Shown here one piece after another: positions 1 to 5,577 of a stretch of DNA of 25,581 nt; position 1 is the stretch's first letter, and each line of letters starts with the position of its first letter. The notes beneath the pieces are model-generated. The model saw nothing but the letters and a program-made list of their open reading frames with translations. It did not search any database and was not told where the DNA came from. The stretch lies in the IMG/VR virus record IMGVR_UViG_3300030107_003133, positions 1 through 25,581 of that record; one strand, given 5' to 3'. Source of the stretch: a virus. Position numbers and translations under genes: made by a program.

Positions 1-132
1 ATCAATAACAGATACTAATCTTGCAGTACCACCGTTATTAACAAGACGCACTACTGTCGCACTACCAAAAGTAGATGATCCAGCAGCGTCAGTGCCACAT
101 GCTGCTTGAGCTCCTTTTACGTTAGTTAACAT
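1..132 (-). CDS. Small conserved phage structural-type protein, N-terminal part (runs off left edge)
   Basis: An ATG at 132-130 opens a frame that stays open for 44 codons to the window edge. The product begins MLTNVKGAQAACGTDAAGSS and continues with a Gly/Ser/Thr- and Val-rich segment (TVVRLVNNGGTARLVSVID). The sequence resembles small beta-rich proteins common in marine T4-like phages, where a short Gly/Ala-rich N-terminus precedes strands carrying a conserved NNGGTARLV-like motif. Their function is not established. The start is supported by a late-promoter-like AATAAATA 24 bp upstream and by GGGAC in the leader. It is the last gene of the series transcribed leftward, 29 bp after the 642-residue protein. 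In T4 the large terminase gp17 follows gp16, so it may lie just outside the window. The reading frame is well supported; the family assignment is recalled and less certain. Confidence 0.7.
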   Translation of the reverse strand, partial: MLTNVKGAQAACGTDAAGSSTFGSATVVRLVNNGGTARLVSVID

Positions 133-155: not shown

Positions 156-163
156 TATTTATT
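156..163 (-). promoter_or_regulatory. Putative T4-type late promoter (AATAAATA)
   Basis: On the minus strand the octamer AATAAATA matches the T4 late-promoter consensus TATAAATA except at its first base. It overlaps the TAA stop codon (164-162) of the upstream gene, reading T-AATAAATA-G. A start about 6 nt downstream would give a leader of roughly 18 nt before the ATG at 132. T4 late promoters need only this -10-like octamer, read by gp55 sigma with gp33/gp45. Whether this phage uses the same factors is inference. Confidence 0.5.
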
Positions 164-2090
164 AAGCACTGTCTTGTGCTGCCTTCTCGTCATCACGAAC
201 TTTTTTAGTAGATTTTAAGAATTTTTCAAGATTCTTTTGTGACTTCTCATCACTTGCCTTCAACTTTTCGAGGTTTGCTCTCATAGCATCAGCAATTCTA
301 CCTTCATTCATAAAACCCCTTAAAGACTTAAGAAGTTCTTCCTTCTTCACCTTTTTCAAATCTTTAAAAGATCCTTTACCCTGTCTGATATTGGACTTAC
401 CATATGGATATCTTAATTCCATTTCTGGACTATCAGCAGACTTACGATATGATGGTGGGTTTCCTCTCTTACCTGCTTTCTTTCTATCTCCAAAATTAGC
501 CTTATCTAATCTTCTACCATGCTTGTAAGCAAAACCTTTACTTACTTGAGTACTCGCCATGTCTTTTTGAGCATCAGACATACCAGCAGTATGTGATGCA
601 AAGCGATTCTCATACTGAGGATGACCTTTTATGTTCTCCTCTCCACCATGCTTTTTAGCAAGAGCCTTTCTCTTCTTCTCATAATCAGGAGATTTTGTAT
701 TGTCATACTTTGCCTTTGCTTCTGTTACTGGAGAACAATCACAATCATCTCCACATTCTTGATGAGATTCATGTGTATCACAACCACAATCTTTAGATTC
801 TTTAGTTACCTTAATAAGAGGATTCCTATCATTATCAAATTGTGCTTCATTACTTGGAATTTCGTCCCTTTGGAAGTAAACAACTTTACCACCAGGATAT
901 ACTTTTACAATTTCATGCTGAACATCACTCCTTGAAGGCATTTTTGCTTGGGGGAAGAACATTCTAATGTTGTACATTTTAGCTCGCCATTGCACACCAA
1001 CTTGAACGATGTGACCGAATTCTGATGGTAGCCTTACTGCTTCATCAACTGTCATTTGGAGTTCCTCCGATTGTTTTTTCTTCTCAGGTAAACCTTTGTG
1101 CTTTGTAGATGCAAAATCTTTTACATCTTTAGTCTTCATACCACAAGCAGCTTTTGCAACCTCTGGTGTAGAAGCATTACCAGTTCTTTTCGCATTAAGA
1201 ACTGCACCCATAAATCTTTGCTGTTTTTTAGAGACTGCTTCTTCTGATTGAGTAGCAGCAGCAACTTTTCTATCTATCTCTTTAGATATACTTGCTCTTT
1301 CTTTTGCTTTGTGACTTGCCTTTGCAACTGCTTGGGCACGTTTAGCAAATACACCCCGTACATCAGATTGTGATGACTTTGCTTTTTGTTGAGATGAAGC
1401 AACATTTGCTTTTTGCTTCTGAACATTTGCAAGTCTTTTAGCATCAAGATCTTCATTGACATCTACATTACCTTTGGTATCAGTAGGTGAATGAACACTT
1501 CTATGTCTTTGATCTCTTGCCTTTTTAGTTGCTTTTAGTTCTTTTTTCGCTTGAACATAAGTATCTTCTTCACTAACCCATTGATCAGCAGCATGCATTT
1601 TAGGCATGACATCTTCTGGTCGAATTAGATCAATAATCTCAGCAAACTTCTCACCAGTGCATGTGCGGAGAACTAGGTTCTCACCCATTCCACCACCATC
1701 ACCATTACCACCTTCACCACCATTACCGCCATTGCCATTAGTGTCATTTTCATCCCCATCATCTTCGTCTTGAACGAGACGACCTCTACCACCTATATGG
1801 TATCCAGAAGGAATCTTTTTACACTTTTTATCGGTATGACAATAATAATATCCCTTTTTACAGGACTTATTCATTTGGTCTTCAAAAACGTCGTTATTAA
1901 TCTCAGTAACAATCAAATCTACAATCTTCAATCCTTCAATCTGTGGATTGGGAGGAAGGTCAATTTTAGACTTTAATTTACTTTTTGCCACATTTTTCTC
2001 ATTAGGATTTGACGATTTAGTCATATTCCTAATCTTAGCCTGTTTAGAAGCAGCTTTATGTAATTTTTTGTCAATAGCAAAACTAGGCAT
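162..2090 (-). CDS. Basic, multi-module protein of unknown function (642 aa; DUF3008-like segment, Cys-rich patches)
   Basis: The product is a 642-residue, Lys-rich protein. The ATG at 2090 is preferred because an earlier in-frame Met would place 45 basic residues over the end of gp16. It also sits 19 bp after the gp16 stop, behind a late-promoter-like octamer. Visible modules: a Cys patch CKKGYYYCHTDKKC (77-90); a Gly/Asn linker (about 118-136); Lys/Ala/Gln-rich, probably helical sequence (about 175-290); a DUF3008-like block with KKQQRFMGAV (288-297) and FASTKHKGLPEKK (326-338). Then come MFFP...KVYPGGKVVYF (377-406), a block with C435, C437, C446, C450, C452 and two His, SPDYEKKRKALAKKHGG (467-483) and a charged helical tail. 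I recall similar pieces as separate modules in other marine T4-like phage proteins. A role as an internal virion, scaffold or packaging-associated protein is guesswork from its place after gp16. Confidence 0.75.
   Translation of the reverse strand: MPSFAIDKKLHKAASKQAKIRNMTKSSNPNEKNVAKSKLKSKIDLPPNPQIEGLKIVDLIVTEINNDVFEDQMNKSCKKGYYYCHTDKKCKKIPSGYHIGGRGRLVQDEDDGDENDTNGNGGNGGEGGNGDGGGMGENLVLRTCTGEKFAEIIDLIRPEDVMPKMHAADQWVSEEDTYVQAKKELKATKKARDQRHRSVHSPTDTKGNVDVNEDLDAKRLANVQKQKANVASSQQKAKSSQSDVRGVFAKRAQAVAKASHKAKERASISKEIDRKVAAATQSEEAVSKKQQRFMGAVLNAKRTGNASTPEVAKAACGMKTKDVKDFASTKHKGLPEKKKQSEELQMTVDEAVRLPSEFGHIVQVGVQWRAKMYNIRMFFPQAKMPSRSDVQHEIVKVYPGGKVVYFQRDEIPSNEAQFDNDRNPLIKVTKESKDCGCDTHESHQECGDDCDCSPVTEAKAKYDNTKSPDYEKKRKALAKKHGGEENIKGHPQYENRFASHTAGMSDAQKDMASTQVSKGFAYKHGRRLDKANFGDRKKAGKRGNPPSYRKSADSPEMELRYPYGKSNIRQGKGSFKDLKKVKKEELLKSLRGFMNEGRIADAMRANLEKLKASDEKSQKNLEKFLKSTKKVRDDEKAAQDSA
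1684..1750 (-). repeat. Gly/Asn-coding triplet-rich low-complexity tract
   Basis: This imperfect trinucleotide-rich stretch (plus strand: accacc, attacc, ttcacc units) encodes residues of about 114-136 of the 642-residue protein. These read as a run of Asn-Gly, Gly-Glu-Gly and Asp-Gly. It separates the N-terminal Cys patch from the rest of the protein and looks like a flexible linker. Such tracts are prone to length change. Confidence 0.7.
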
Positions 2091-2109: not shown

Positions 2110-2541
2110 CTATTTATCTTTTTCTTCTGCTTTGTTCTTTTTAAGTAACTTAGATAATTCTGCTGTTGATCCAAAGAACATAGCATTAGTAACGTTGGTT
2201 GGACCTTTTGGATTATCCTCTTCAACTTCTTTAATTTTCTTCTGAAGATCCATTAACTTATCTGTTGTATCAGAAACAGATTTAATAAGTTGTCCAACAA
2301 CTTCAAATGCTCTTGCATTACCCTGATCAACTGCTATCTCTAAAGCACTATCTAATGCTTCTTGTCCCTTCTCAATAATAGAATATAATTGTCCTCTTGT
2401 ATAATCATAATCTTTCTCTATATCAGCATCTTTATTCTTAGAAGTAGGTACTGGTTTTTTAGATTCTGATTTTACAACCTCAGTCTCAACAACCTCATCT
2501 ATATCAAAAGTGTCGTTTAGATCTTTAAATTTATCAGTCAT
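2110..2541 (-). CDS. 16: Small terminase subunit, gp16-like
   Basis: This 143-residue protein matches gp16-type small terminases of T4-like marine phages. These form a ring that recognises viral DNA and regulates the gp17 motor during head filling. The diagnostic stretches are IEKDYDYTRGQLYSIIEKGQ (41-60), AFEVVGQLIKSVSDTTDKL (78-96) and GPTNVTNAMFFGSTAEL (113-129). The first 40 residues are acidic/polar and probably disordered; residues 45-110 should be helical. The start at 2541 is chosen because ATG overlaps the TGA of the oxygenase gene as ATGA, giving a protein that begins MTDKFKDLND like its relatives. An upstream ATG at 2580 would add 13 residues read from inside the neighbouring gene and is unlikely. 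T4 gp16 is slightly longer (164 aa). Identification rests on recalled motifs plus position after gp13-gp14-gp15. Confidence 0.88.
   Translation of the reverse strand: MTDKFKDLNDTFDIDEVVETEVVKSESKKPVPTSKNKDADIEKDYDYTRGQLYSIIEKGQEALDSALEIAVDQGNARAFEVVGQLIKSVSDTTDKLMDLQKKIKEVEEDNPKGPTNVTNAMFFGSTAELSKLLKKNKAEEKDK
2111..2118 (-). promoter_or_regulatory. Putative T4-type late promoter (GATAAATA)
   Basis: On the minus strand GATAAATA forms the last codons of gp16 (GAT AAA TAG), so the promoter-like octamer includes the first two bases of the stop codon. It lies 20 bp upstream of the ATG at 2090. Only the first base departs from T4 TATAAATA. Because Asp-Lys-stop would produce the same bases by coding alone, this site is weaker evidence than the two AATAAATA sites. 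Confidence 0.4.
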
Positions 2542-3167
2542 AGTCTTACCCAATCTCGTTCTTGGTATATACCACCCCAAGGATCAGTAGGCACTGGCAT
2601 TGCAAAGCTTACAGATAATCTAGAAGTAATTGAGGTTGCCAGGTGTGGATAATATGCAGGAATGAATACTGCATCTCCTGGTTCCATAATAGTATCTATA
2701 ATAGGTTTACTTACTATGTTCATTTGTTTTGAATATTGCTCCCTATCAAATACTTCATCCCATATTTTCCAATGAGTTGTTCCCTCACACTGAACTATGA
2801 CATTATCATTTCCATCAAAATGAATTCCAAAAGGATGATCTTCTGGCTTTATACATGAATAGATGTGAGCATCAACTGCTGATTTACACTCTAATTCAAG
2901 TTTATGAGTAGCAGCATTTAAAGTCTCTGTAGATCGAGACATCTCAGTAAACCAACAAGTATATTTCTTAATTGCTTCTCTAAGAACAGTAGGTGGATAA
3001 CATCCTGGATTAGTTGTCCATACATCATTATCCCAAAACATCTCTGCCTCTGGAGCAAGTATATGAACCCTTTCCTGAGACATTAATGGTCGTATGTTTA
3101 TTATATTCTCGAATTCATGCCAAGATAATAAATTAGGATGATAATCCTTCACATATTGTGGTTTCAT
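2538..3167 (-). CDS. JmjC/cupin-like Fe(II)/2-oxoglutarate-dependent oxygenase (putative hydroxylase)
   Basis: The 209-residue protein has a double-stranded beta-helix oxygenase signature: H116-F-D118 in GIHFDGNDNVIVQ, a distal H175 in PGDAVFIPAYYPHLATS (163-179), then R183-L-S185. HxD...H is the iron-binding facial triad, and RxS near the C-terminus matches the 2-oxoglutarate-binding motif of many such enzymes. The layout (HxD, then EGTTHWKIW, then PGD-hydrophobic-P...H) resembles JmjC/cupin_8 proteins such as ribosomal oxygenases and FIH. The position aligning with the 2-oxoglutarate-binding Lys of FIH appears to be Thr131, so R183 may take that role. No signal peptide or membrane segment is seen. 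ATGA overlaps join it to gp15 upstream and gp16 downstream, so it is made with tail and packaging proteins. The substrate is unknown; a virion or host protein is likely. The fold is fairly secure, the reaction is inferred. Confidence 0.8.
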   Translation of the reverse strand: MKPQYVKDYHPNLLSWHEFENIINIRPLMSQERVHILAPEAEMFWDNDVWTTNPGCYPPTVLREAIKKYTCWFTEMSRSTETLNAATHKLELECKSAVDAHIYSCIKPEDHPFGIHFDGNDNVIVQCEGTTHWKIWDEVFDREQYSKQMNIVSKPIIDTIMEPGDAVFIPAYYPHLATSITSRLSVSFAMPVPTDPWGGIYQERDWVRL

Positions 3168-4165
3168 GTTCCACTAAATCCAAAATCATCTCCTGCTTCT
3201 ATAAGTGCATTATCAGCACTAGTAATTCCTTTGACATCACTACCACGAACATGTTCTATGGCAGTTGTATTATAAGAAGCACGTTTTACAGTTAGTTTAT
3301 TACCAGTAATATCGGTAATATACATTGTCTCATTATTAATATCAATAAATGTATTTTCTACTAATCCTGCAGAATCATCTACTGGAATAGTAACTGCTGT
3401 TGCAAGAACATCTTCTGCAAGGTTTGCAATAACATCTCCAGTGTAATTCTTAGTAGCAACTGGTGTAGCATATGTAAGTTGACGACCTGAACCATATGCT
3501 GCACTTTGCTCTCCAGGTGTAATACCAATAGATACCTTCTTGATAAGATCCTTCGGTGTAGTTGGAACAGGACCAAATAGGTATGTCTTAGCAGTAAAAC
3601 TCAAGGTATACAGTAATACCCTTCTTGATGTATAATCTCCTTCATAGTTGTCTTCAAAAGCAACATTATCTAGAGTAATTGGAATATCTTTCTTCTCTCC
3701 AATAGTATCTACTAGATCAACTGTAATAGTATAATTTGGTTGAAAATATGGAAGTATTTGCTCTACGATTTGTAATGCGTCATCATTTAGCAAAGTCATT
3801 ATGGACAACTCAAACTGCATGTTATAAGGAACAGGCATATAAACCTTACGAACATCCTTTTTATCAGTTTTTATTGAAGTTACAAAAGTCTGTGTTGCAC
3901 CTACCTTCCTAGTAGTATCATATTCAATACCTGTAAATTCAAAAGACATTCTAGGCAAACTAATAGATACTGGTTTATTCAGATCTGGTTGTTGCTCAAT
4001 TCTTGCTAGAAACTTTTGAGTGGGACCATATGCCAATGGAACTTTAATAATTGCAGACGGGTCATTAGCAGCATCACCATCTCTATGGATAGTGATCCCG
4101 TTAAACAAAGTACCAAATCCAATTACGGTCTTTCTAAAAATTTGATGGTAAAAATGATCAAACAT
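3164..4165 (-). CDS. 15: Tail completion / proximal tail sheath stabilisation protein, gp15-like, with extra C-terminal domain
   Basis: The 333-residue product resembles T4 gp15, which forms the ring capping the tail tube and sheath and accepts the head. It begins MFDHFYHQIFRK (T4: MFGYFYNSSFRR). It carries LQIVEQILPYFQP (131-143), nearly identical to T4, then the DYTSRRVLLYTLSFTAKTYLFGP block (177-199), which matches the T4 segment LSRRRIEWSLTFEVNGWMYPP. It sits 2 bp after gp14, the T4 order. T4 gp15 is 272 residues. Here about 85 residues are added, including a module at about 250-316 with INNETMYITDI and LTVKRASYNTTAIEH. A similar pattern occurs in the giant protein (VEDEIMLIAGV...LTIRRGWMGTT) and near the end of the DUF4815 protein (INEEIISYTGI...LTGITRSVD). 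The stop overlaps the oxygenase start as ATGA. Confidence 0.9.
   Translation of the reverse strand: MFDHFYHQIFRKTVIGFGTLFNGITIHRDGDAANDPSAIIKVPLAYGPTQKFLARIEQQPDLNKPVSISLPRMSFEFTGIEYDTTRKVGATQTFVTSIKTDKKDVRKVYMPVPYNMQFELSIMTLLNDDALQIVEQILPYFQPNYTITVDLVDTIGEKKDIPITLDNVAFEDNYEGDYTSRRVLLYTLSFTAKTYLFGPVPTTPKDLIKKVSIGITPGEQSAAYGSGRQLTYATPVATKNYTGDVIANLAEDVLATAVTIPVDDSAGLVENTFIDINNETMYITDITGNKLTVKRASYNTTAIEHVRGSDVKGITSADNALIEAGDDFGFSGT
3218..3418 (-). other. gp15 C-terminal add-on module shared with other virion proteins
   Basis: This DNA encodes residues 250-316 of the gp15-like protein, beyond the region that aligns by eye to T4 gp15. The pattern is a strand, AGL/AGF, a second strand with IN-E-x-M/I-x-I, a turn, then LT-V/I-x-R and a Thr/His-containing end. 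The same order is seen in the giant protein at about 25090-24885 and in the DUF4815 protein at about 7900-7700. This suggests a small mobile beta-rich domain. Confidence 0.55.
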
Positions 4166-4167
4166 AA

Positions 4168-5577
4168 TTATACATTTCCAAATGGGTTACTTTCGCTAAA
4201 GTCTAAAAGATCATCTGCTTCAGACTCTATAGTTGCATTTTGTGGGTATCCAGTTTCTGGAAGATCATCACTATTTAGATCGCTTATACAGAACCTTGTA
4301 GAGGTTTCTTGTCCAACAATGTATTCACCTTTCTGGAAGGTTCCAACAATCTGACCTATTCGTAATTCTCTAGTTACAGCATTCCAAGTCTTAACTTGTG
4401 CCGTTGCACTACTTGCAGTACCAACTATATCCTCTCCTCTATTAAATGAACCAGTTCCTCCAGTTTGTACTGGTGGTGCAATTAATATCTCAGGTGAATC
4501 AGTATACCATCCACCACAATCTTCGTAAACAAGTGCAGTAACTGAACCTGCAGCAGATACAACAGCATGCACTACTGCTGGTATAGTTGTACTACCAATA
4601 CCACTATATCCATCAGGTGCAAATGCTACAGTTGGAATTCCAACATACCCACCACCACCATTAGTGATAGTAATAATACCACAAACACCATCAGCAATTT
4701 GGGTTATTCCATAAGCACCACGTCCAGTATCAGTCATAAAACCAACCCTTGGTGCTACAGTATATCCAGATCCTGGATTTGTTAAATTAACTGCTTGAAC
4801 TCTTGATAGATCTGCATTTGGTTCGCAGAAGTCTACAAGACCAGATATCATTGATGTTACACCAACCGTTGTTTGACCTCCAGCAGGAGCAGAAGAGAAT
4901 GCAACTTGAGGTGGATGAGTGTACCCAGATCCTCTTCTAGAGACTATAACTTTACGAACACCACCATCAACTAACGTTGTTACAGCAGTTGCTTGTGATG
5001 CTATTCCAGCAAGAGTCATTGTTTGTATATAACCTTCCTCTTCAACATTATCATCAATAAAGTCTATTCCTGTATCAACCTCTTCATCGTTGTACATGAA
5101 TAGCTCACATCTCAATTCATAAACATAATTCTTTTGTAATTGATAGAATGGTTTTTCATGCTCTACATATTTGATTTCAAATAACCTATCACCTAATGGA
5201 AAATATACTAAATCTCCTTCCTTAGGTCTACTTGCTAATTTAATACCTTTTATTGGTTCTATACGTTTTTGTATCTCTTCCTCATACCTTTCTTTAGAGA
5301 TAATCAATGTTAGATCATCTAACTCTTGAACACCAAACTTAGATAGAAGTGTTCCCGCACCAGAATATCCATCAAACGTCTCAACATATGCTTCTAAAGG
5401 AACAGCATTAGCAAAGTTAGATCTGGAGACTTCCTCCATAACTGTTTTCTCTGCACCATAAGTTCTTGGTATGTAATAAACTTCCACACCAAACATCTTT
5501 AATTGTTCATTCACTAAGTCCTGAACAAGATTTTGTTCTCCTTTAGATCCGTGAAGGAAGAATGGATTAAGTGCCAT
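4168..5577 (-). CDS. 14: Neck protein gp14-like, enlarged by inserted repeats
   Basis: The 469-residue product has the conserved core of T4 gp14, which with gp13 forms the neck joining the filled head to the tail. Matches include VEVYYIPRTYG (31-41; T4 VECYYVPREY), FDGYSGAGTLLSKFGVQ (68-84), PKEGDLVYFPL (118-128), LFEIKYVEHEKPFYQL (132-147) and the ending SNPFGNV (T4 SPFDNDFMD). T4 gp14 has 256 residues. The excess lies between about residues 185 and 435: four Gly-Tyr repeats (around 216, 270, 308, 356) followed by GSFNRGEDIVGTASSATAQV and GTFQKGEYIVGQETS, a duplicated GEx-I-V-G motif. The insert is probably beta-rich and surface exposed, decorating the neck. The gene lies 4 bp after gp13 and 2 bp before gp15, the T4 order. 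Confidence 0.92.
   Translation of the reverse strand: MALNPFFLHGSKGEQNLVQDLVNEQLKMFGVEVYYIPRTYGAEKTVMEEVSRSNFANAVPLEAYVETFDGYSGAGTLLSKFGVQELDDLTLIISKERYEEEIQKRIEPIKGIKLASRPKEGDLVYFPLGDRLFEIKYVEHEKPFYQLQKNYVYELRCELFMYNDEEVDTGIDFIDDNVEEEGYIQTMTLAGIASQATAVTTLVDGGVRKVIVSRRGSGYTHPPQVAFSSAPAGGQTTVGVTSMISGLVDFCEPNADLSRVQAVNLTNPGSGYTVAPRVGFMTDTGRGAYGITQIADGVCGIITITNGGGGYVGIPTVAFAPDGYSGIGSTTIPAVVHAVVSAAGSVTALVYEDCGGWYTDSPEILIAPPVQTGGTGSFNRGEDIVGTASSATAQVKTWNAVTRELRIGQIVGTFQKGEYIVGQETSTRFCISDLNSDDLPETGYPQNATIESEADDLLDFSESNPFGNV
4468..4965 (-). repeat. Gly-Tyr (GGxGYxxxPxV) repeat insertion in gp14
   Basis: Residues 205-370 of gp14 contain four related units: VIVSRRGSGYTHPPQVAF, VNLTNPGSGYTVAPRVGF, ITITNGGGGYVGIPTVAF and a divergent one, LVYEDCGGWYTDSPEILI. 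Each reads as hydrophobic strand, Gly-rich turn, Tyr, Pro, second strand. Single copies of the same unit occur in gp8 (residues 257-274), twice in the DUF4815 protein and several times in the giant protein. Confidence 0.8.

Follow-up and report, generated by a model that had tools for sequence, protein, structure and literature searches.

Gene for a probable modular polyprotein of a T4-like phage with predicted prohead-protease sites at its module boundaries

In the linear virus record IMGVR_UViG_3300030107_003133 (25,581 bases, analyzed in full and hereafter called the window), a 642-residue open reading frame (ORF), termed P0002, adjoins gp16 of a T4-like gene cluster and encodes a string of small modules. 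We think it rather likely that P0002 is a polyprotein of the head interior and that a prohead protease of the T4 gp21 type cuts it. As we picture it, several small and mostly basic proteins would be translated as one chain, which would be brought into the prohead and cut by such a protease at [ILVM]xE/ sites (here and below, a slash marks the predicted cut), and the released pieces would remain in the capsid with the DNA, with some probably being ejected into the host in the manner of the T4 internal proteins. The same modules can also be encoded as genes of their own, equipped with a T4-like capsid-targeting leader. The presence of a protease-like site before most of these small basic proteins suggests that the chain is cut in the head into separate internal proteins. 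We infer the cleavage, retention, and ejection, as well as the entry of P0002 into the head; the modules are probably released from one another by proteolysis.

To describe the mosaic architecture, 17 module profiles were scanned over 6,313 distinct ORFs (8,087 before identical ones were merged) from 301 loci, these being denoted L002, L010, and so forth, while an additional profile, M17, which cross-matched other stretches, was excluded. Module profiles matched 307 ORFs, among which 203 carried at least two different modules and the richest carried nine. The 203 multi-module ORFs displayed 104 module orders, their reduction to 94 nonredundant polyproteins still left 70 orders, and 33 pairs of modules were found in both orders. 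Complete single-module ORFs also occur, including 49 for DUF3008, 18 for WFKG, 11 for VRLP/YPGG-like modules, and eight for DUF6321. Even at one locus the arrangement varies, as L033 combines an ORF of nine modules with two genes of one module each, and L115 and L118 have four separate genes. Likewise, SPDYEKKRK-type modules sit beside varying partners in L066, L299, and L065. A net positive charge characterizes 88 of the 94 nonredundant polyproteins. The earlier note on this DNA had described separate modules strung in one Lys-rich chain, which these profiles and orders bear out, with all four of its named segments being present.

Whole-protein homology of P0002 was considered and rejected, as its matches in the phage collection are partial only. 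By tblastn, none of 50,697 phage records covers 80% of P0002 and 135 match it in part; thus, rather than one continuous family of the same length, we find parts that also occur separately as their own genes. A scan of viral contigs with P0002 returned 138 relatives, of which 80 were kept, and the nearer complete ones measure 535 to 944 residues, with modules inserted, lost, or moved. In the alignment, L007 and L009 lack exactly the stretch between E174 and E213, the ends being joined through a single VNE, and DUF3008 is absent from L007, L009, and L024. In Pfam, the sole family above its cut-off in P0002 is DUF3008, which at residues 285-338 scores 25.9 bits against a threshold of 24 and reaches 31.1 bits in the genome search, confirming the DUF3008-like segment that had been proposed. 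The VRLP/YPGG module by itself is coded at 523 places in the viral contigs, and among 84,980 species genomes it is found on one contig only, from an archaeal metagenome-assembled genome, which makes it in effect a phage protein. Modular strings are therefore a widespread habit among marine T4-like phages and not a peculiarity of P0002; the view that it is unusual for one gene to collect so many modules is correct, though it must be read with this wide distribution in mind. Judged from the sequences, the modularity itself is clear, and the modules would appear to be gained, lost, and reordered as units that often end at protease sites.

T4 gp21 cleaves after a short L/I-X-E motif (PMC9026906, in excerpt), and the check for prohead-protease sites that the earlier note had proposed gave a positive outcome. 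We looked for [ILV]xE in the 16 residues around each of the 369 module starts in the 94 nonredundant polyproteins, and it was present at 240 starts (65%), as against 3852 of 22575 distant linker windows (17%) and 2055 of the 17069 windows that lie within modules (12%). When A, G, S, or K was required after the Glu, the count became 172 of 369 (47%) vs 7.9% in linkers and 5.4% within modules. Because the seeds of five modules had been trimmed near a Glu after the motif was already known, the test was repeated without them, giving 156 of 252 starts (62%). In a random-window version the site was found at 243 of 369 starts, while 1,000 draws averaged 80 and never exceeded 103. Per module, the rates were highest for M5 (26/27), M2 (27/31), M8 (43/51), M4 (20/24), and M9 (33/41), followed by M10 (36/55) and M7 (30/48). 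We relied on this positional test because a position-blind count (200 [ILVM]xE[AGS] in 43 polyproteins vs 94 in shuffles) comes from a redundant set, and P0002 taken alone is near chance.

Individual junctions follow the same pattern. In all 34 distinct contexts of the VRLP module start there is a Glu, followed by A, G, or S and with I, L, or V at P3, whereas at P2 the nonredundant set shows D, E, S, N, K, G, A, and L, and Glu at P3 occurs in 1 of 23. All 32 contexts of an internal DUF3008 have Glu just before it (xE/KAVSKKQQRF), and a protein-initial one has Met at the Glu position in 13 of 14 N-terminal contexts (M/PAVSKKQQRF). For DUF6321, an independent set of 80 loci (eight of them dropped for no pattern match) provided 57 distinct contexts of embedded copies, and in 53 of these a Glu is among the three residues preceding the module. 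In P0002, aligned as one of 16 sequences, the conserved sites fit the L/I-x-E type at piece boundaries, with V and M also found at P3 (Table 1). The predicted products would be residues 1-63, 71-174, 175-213, 214-350 (with DUF3008), 351-457 (with VRLP), 458-596, and 597-642, together with a seven-residue stub, and five of these eight are basic. Placement and conservation of the sites are thus plain, as far as sequence comparison goes. Here, one alternative is that P0002 stays uncut and serves as a multidomain protein of the virion or of packaging, whose Glu at module edges is a functionless linker habit. In its favour are the shortness of the motif and its frequent absence before five modules, yet we regard this as improbable, given that the sites are concentrated at module starts rather than in linkers generally, that P1 and P3 are conserved with P2 variable, and that the Glu takes the place of the start Met of single genes.

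A second line of evidence comes from the single-module ORFs, which often begin with MKTFKQFISE, MKNFKQFMSE, MKTFNQFIAE, or MKTFKQFREE, to be compared with MKTYQEFIAE in IPII and IPIII and MKTFKEF in IPI of the T4 record. For IPIII, the first ten residues are enough for packaging, with residues 4 and 7 serving targeting and 8 and 10 processing (PMC9026906 section 2.6, in excerpt). Such a leader was found on 40 of 287 module ORFs vs 41 of 5,628 other ORFs, and after removal of redundancy on 8 of 92 vs 20 of 2,023 (Fisher p 1.4e-5). The strict leader regular expression misses near variants, as all five DUF6321 single genes examined have the xE-ending type of leader and only one of the five fits the expression. 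Moreover, leader-like stretches inside polyproteins number 21 vs 3.3 in shuffles (maximum 10), several being SFQQF[SQA]E before CWxGY. The leader on single-module genes is established by these comparisons, and its packaging role in these phages would follow that of T4. In another phage group (L055, L059, L062, L070, L075, L079, and L081), we also noticed a gene of 201-205 residues with the leader MK[NP]F..YLAE just upstream of the DUF3008-bearing ORF.

With regard to virions, the evidence for homologues of P0002 is mixed. From S-CREM2, gp160, which is a WFKG-CWPGY-DACYHK string, was detected with seven unique peptides and 13.1% coverage (PMC10665884 Table 3). The GenBank record of S-SCSM1_29 annotates it as 'virion protein', and mass spectrometry of S-SCSM1 identified 45 virion proteins (PMC9602691, in excerpt). 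In the text of the S-SM1 paper, the GC119 product is called a hypothetical protein. These data bear on a second alternative, in which the pieces are core scaffold rather than cargo; the prohead protease would still cut them, but they would occupy the prohead core and for the most part exit the head at maturation, as T4 gp22, gp67, and gp68 do. Speaking for it are the cutting of T4 core proteins into several fragments that mostly leave (PMC9026906, in excerpt), the lack of detection of the S-SZBM1 homologue in virions, and the Lys-rich and variable nature of the chain. Still, we judge it rather unlikely in view of the S-CREM2 gp160 peptides recovered from virions, the gp22 already present in S-SM2 and S-SCSM1, the DUF192 domain among the modules, and the resemblance of the leader on single-module genes to those of T4 cargo proteins. 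A third proposal, that of an external neck or tail component, draws on the location of the gene among neck and tail genes and on the T4-GC119 label 'structural protein, cyanophage only'. This seems very improbable, since no tail or neck family matches P0002 or its relatives, modules are also present in genes far from gp16-gp17 (S-CREM2 gp160, Sf-FS3), and DUF6321 stands alone beside a podovirus capsid gene.

As for the protease itself, records of 41 loci, chosen mostly by length from about 300, were searched with PF03420, and this gp21-family protease was present in 17. The carriers include the relative L011, the group of L033, L115, L118, L119, and L120, and four of five isolate genomes, the fifth being a podovirus; PF03420 was not found in the L010 and L013 fragments. 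In S-SM2 and S-SCSM1, gp23 has IAE/Q and LAE/A at the expected maturation position, and gp22 has LSE/G, all of them being inferred sites.

Several observations weigh against the head-internal polyprotein reading. No PF03420 match was obtained in 24 of the 41 records, which are mostly fragments, plus one podovirus and one 152-kilobase contig, and the window record, a fragment, stops before any gp21 gene. The site is mostly absent before M18 (1/25), DUF192 (1/9), M3 (4/18), M13 (3/10), and M6 (2/6), so that some module edges are without a predicted cut. In P0002 alone, three [ILVM]xE[AGS] motifs compare with 1.7 expected, and P3 at the DUF3008 start is Gln, not I, L, or V. Moreover, a site-like LPE336 lies inside the DUF3008 core (13 of 13 aligned), which means that the short motif over-predicts. 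Lys, which follows the Glu where DUF3008 and CWxGY modules start, is not known among the residues at T4 sites. P0002, whose N-terminus was checked, lacks the T4-like leader MK[TS][FY]xxFxxE, and only five multi-module ORFs carry it. Finally, S-SZBM1_194, which is long and headed by DUF3008, is not among the 30 proteins of the S-SZBM1 virion (PMC9146016 Table 1). On balance, the prohead-interior role that had been suggested for P0002 is supported, because protease-type sites lie at module starts, single-module genes have leaders, and a homologue is detected in virions.

Whole-genome inspection of S-SCSM1 and S-CREM2 gave four leader-bearing ORFs, three of which are reported as non-structural virion proteins, namely the SAM hydrolase and cytidylyltransferase of S-CREM2 and the NMNAT of S-SCSM1; the fourth, S-SCSM1_30, has no virion-protein label. 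In the S-CREM2 virion, the SAM hydrolase gave 19 peptides and the cytidylyltransferase three (PMC10665884 Table 3), and the S-SCSM1 NMNAT is a virion protein (PMC9602691, in excerpt). NMNAT/cytidylyltransferase was also detected in the virions of S-SM1 (PMC3037559, in excerpt) and S-SZBM1 (PMC9146016 Table 1). We found it in eight of nine cyanophage records, the ninth being partial. Separately, this protein (T4-GC190 type; L344-L350; L304:3850-4710) has a T4-like leader in all eight cyanophages with a match, where that of S-SZBM1 is one residue shorter and that of Sf-FS3 begins at GTG. The leader is accordingly put forward as a candidate reason for the presence of NMNAT in virions. The S-CREM2 SAM hydrolase (3837-5081, minus strand, in L333) has the leader-like start MKDFDSFLEE and is possibly an injected anti-restriction enzyme.

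More broadly, and as a tentative proposal that we hold to be less probable than its opposite, the prohead protease of marine T4-like phages might act as a decoder of modular cargo. By this, whatever small protein sits behind an [ILV]xE/ junction in a long polyprotein, or behind a T4-like leader, would be packaged, released, and injected, and the gp16-gp17 gene would be a fast-shuffling library of injected host-takeover proteins, the same label explaining virion NMNAT and SAM hydrolase. Marine T4-like phages repeatedly encode hypothetical proteins between gp16 and gp17, and parts of the S-SM2 GC119 protein alone match 544 phage records. The head-internal polyprotein reading would give these proteins a testable role and predicted mature products with exact ends. 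Considered as an address label, the leader would predict which proteins are carried inside cyanophage capsids, and might explain how NMNAT and other metabolic enzymes reach virions. We came across no account of such a polyprotein or of a cyanophage capsid-targeting leader in the literature searched, with subscription journals lying largely outside it.

Structural models were made for two modules. The VRLP module is predicted as beta-beta-alpha-beta, with a predicted local distance difference test (pLDDT) score of about 90 in its core. Its top structural rows, RNA-polymerase epsilon and T7 Gp2, are weak (Z 4.7-4.8, Foldseek E 0.25). Comparison of its profile with that of T7 Gp2 gave E 0.97, and Pfam returned no shared family for 22 VRLP members. 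An RNA-polymerase-binding Gp2/epsilon-like fold was rejected as an assignment, the rows being far below confidence and the Gp2 profile comparison failing, and it stays a lead only. The DUF3008 model has three helices and a mean pLDDT of 78, with no structural match having E under 2, and comparison of P0002 with solved structures by sequence gave nothing better than E 0.2. Since no structural match to either of the modelled modules is convincing, the earlier suggestions of a DNA-binding protein and of a packaging helper are left unsupported. In an NCBIfam scan of P0002, the sole row was below cut-off, that of the antiphage family GapS6a (18.6 of 90 bits, E 0.0018; residues 575-631, window 198-368), and is probably a chance match in a Lys/Glu-rich helix.

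The P0002 ORF is on the minus strand, with its ATG at 2090 and its stop at 162-164; a plus-strand reading of 162-2090 was ruled out, as it is full of stops. In-frame alternative starts at 2186 (ATG) and 2225 (TTG) both overlap gp16, and the chosen start, MPSFAIDKK, agrees with the M[PTA]SFAIDKK that begins most close orthologs in the alignment. The protein has an isoelectric point of 9.5 and 14.2% Lys, and its features are collected in Table 1.

Table 1. Features of P0002 and their positions in the window
Feature	Positions	Strand	Basis
Modular polyprotein coding sequence P0002, 642 residues	162..2090	-	ORF call and orthologs
M1, residues 1-44, basic N-terminal module (MPSFAIDKK...KIRNM)	1959..2090	-	Hidden Markov model (HMM); internal in L065, L069, L274, L154, L047
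Predicted protease site V-T-E63 (V/I-T-E)	1902..1910	-	16/16 aligned sequences
Predicted protease site V-F-E70 (VFE/D or IEE/A)	1881..1889	-	16/16 aligned
M2, residues 72-106, Cys patch CKKGYYYCHTDKKC	1773..1877	-	HMM; first or last module in other proteins
Gly/Asn-rich linker, residues 117-137	1680..1742	-	Sequence
M3, residues 136-172, GEKFAEIIDLIRPEDV	1575..1685	-	HMM
Predicted protease site V-S-E174	1569..1577	-	14/14 aligned; upstream end of segment absent in L007/L009
Predicted protease site V-N-E213	1452..1460	-	16/16 aligned; downstream end of segment absent in L007/L009
M4, residues 283-341, DUF3008 (PF11450)	1068..1244	-	HMM; Glu where single-module genes have start Met
Predicted protease site V-D-E350/A	1041..1049	-	16/16 aligned
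M5, residues 348-411, VRLP...MFFP...KVYPGG module, predicted beta-beta-alpha-beta core	858..1049	-	HMM, model
Predicted protease site V-T-E457/A	720..728	-	12/15 aligned
M6, residues 498-560, downstream of SPDYEKKRKALAKKHGG stretch	411..599	-	HMM
Predicted protease site M-N-E596/G	303..311	-	15/16 aligned
Basic C-terminal piece, residues 597-642	165..302	-	Alignment, charge

The neighbours in the window are T4-like, comprising large baseplate- or tail-type ORFs, gp13, gp14, gp15, a JmjC_2 protein, gp16, P0002, and the start of phrog_19805. Because its gp15 is closest to those of cyanophages (60% to Bellamy and 59% to S-SM2), the source of P0002 is, by this sequence criterion, a Kyanoviridae-like phage. 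The earlier placement of the gene between the small terminase and the next gene was right about the gp16 neighbour and required correction as to order, which in L010, L013, L018, and L002 is gp16, the P0002 homologue, phrog_19805, and gp17. Farther downstream in relatives come gp18, gp19, and gp20; the window itself covers the gp16 side of P0002, and the gp17 side is seen in relatives. The JmjC_2-type oxygenase (PF08007, 57 bits; window 2538-3167) between gp15 and gp16 also occurs there in L002, and is not at that spot in L010, L013, and L018. The phrog_19805 gene adjoins gp17 (window 1-132; L010:7638-7910), and its product is weakly like S-SZBM1_195 (30% over 66 residues, E 7e-4), which has the third highest exponentially modified protein abundance index among the proteins tabulated for the S-SZBM1 virion (PMC9146016 Table 1). 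Elsewhere, in the podovirus P-SCSP1a, DUF6321 forms a leaderless stand-alone gene of 84 residues directly after the major capsid gene (L306:3959-4213).

Among known proteins, the GC119 cyanophage proteins of S-SM2 (SSM2_109), S-SM1 (SSM1_115), and S-B43 occupy the same gp16-gp17 location as the P0002 homologues and are other strings of the same module set, including DUF192 and DUF6321. The VRLP/YPGG module is common to P0002 and S-SM2, S-SCSM1, and S-B43, and the Cys patch to P0002 and S-SM2 and S-SCSM1. In contrast, GC119 members carry WFKG, DACYHK, CWxGY, and DUF6321, which P0002 lacks, while its own chain has DUF3008 and M6, unlike those members; there is no whole-length orthology, and single modules only are shared. 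DUF3008 (PF11450) is, in turn, one P0002 module among several. Glu-directed head proteases and many internal proteins are also described for the giant phages SPN3US and phiKZ (PMC9026906, in excerpt), a likeness by description. T4 gp22, gp67, and gp68 are cut by gp21 into several pieces, yet the excerpted text of PMC9026906 does not describe T4 core proteins as shuffled modules that also exist as genes, whereas here 104 orders were found. T4 IPI, IPII, and IPIII are small and basic like the P0002 modules and have in common with the single-module relatives a leader ending in xE/, although family scans gave no kinship between their mature parts and the modules. The T4 internal proteins are single genes with one leader each, whereas P0002 has many modules strung in one leaderless ORF. 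P0002 most likely follows the logic of the T4 internal proteins, with its parts arranged instead as a shuffled chain.

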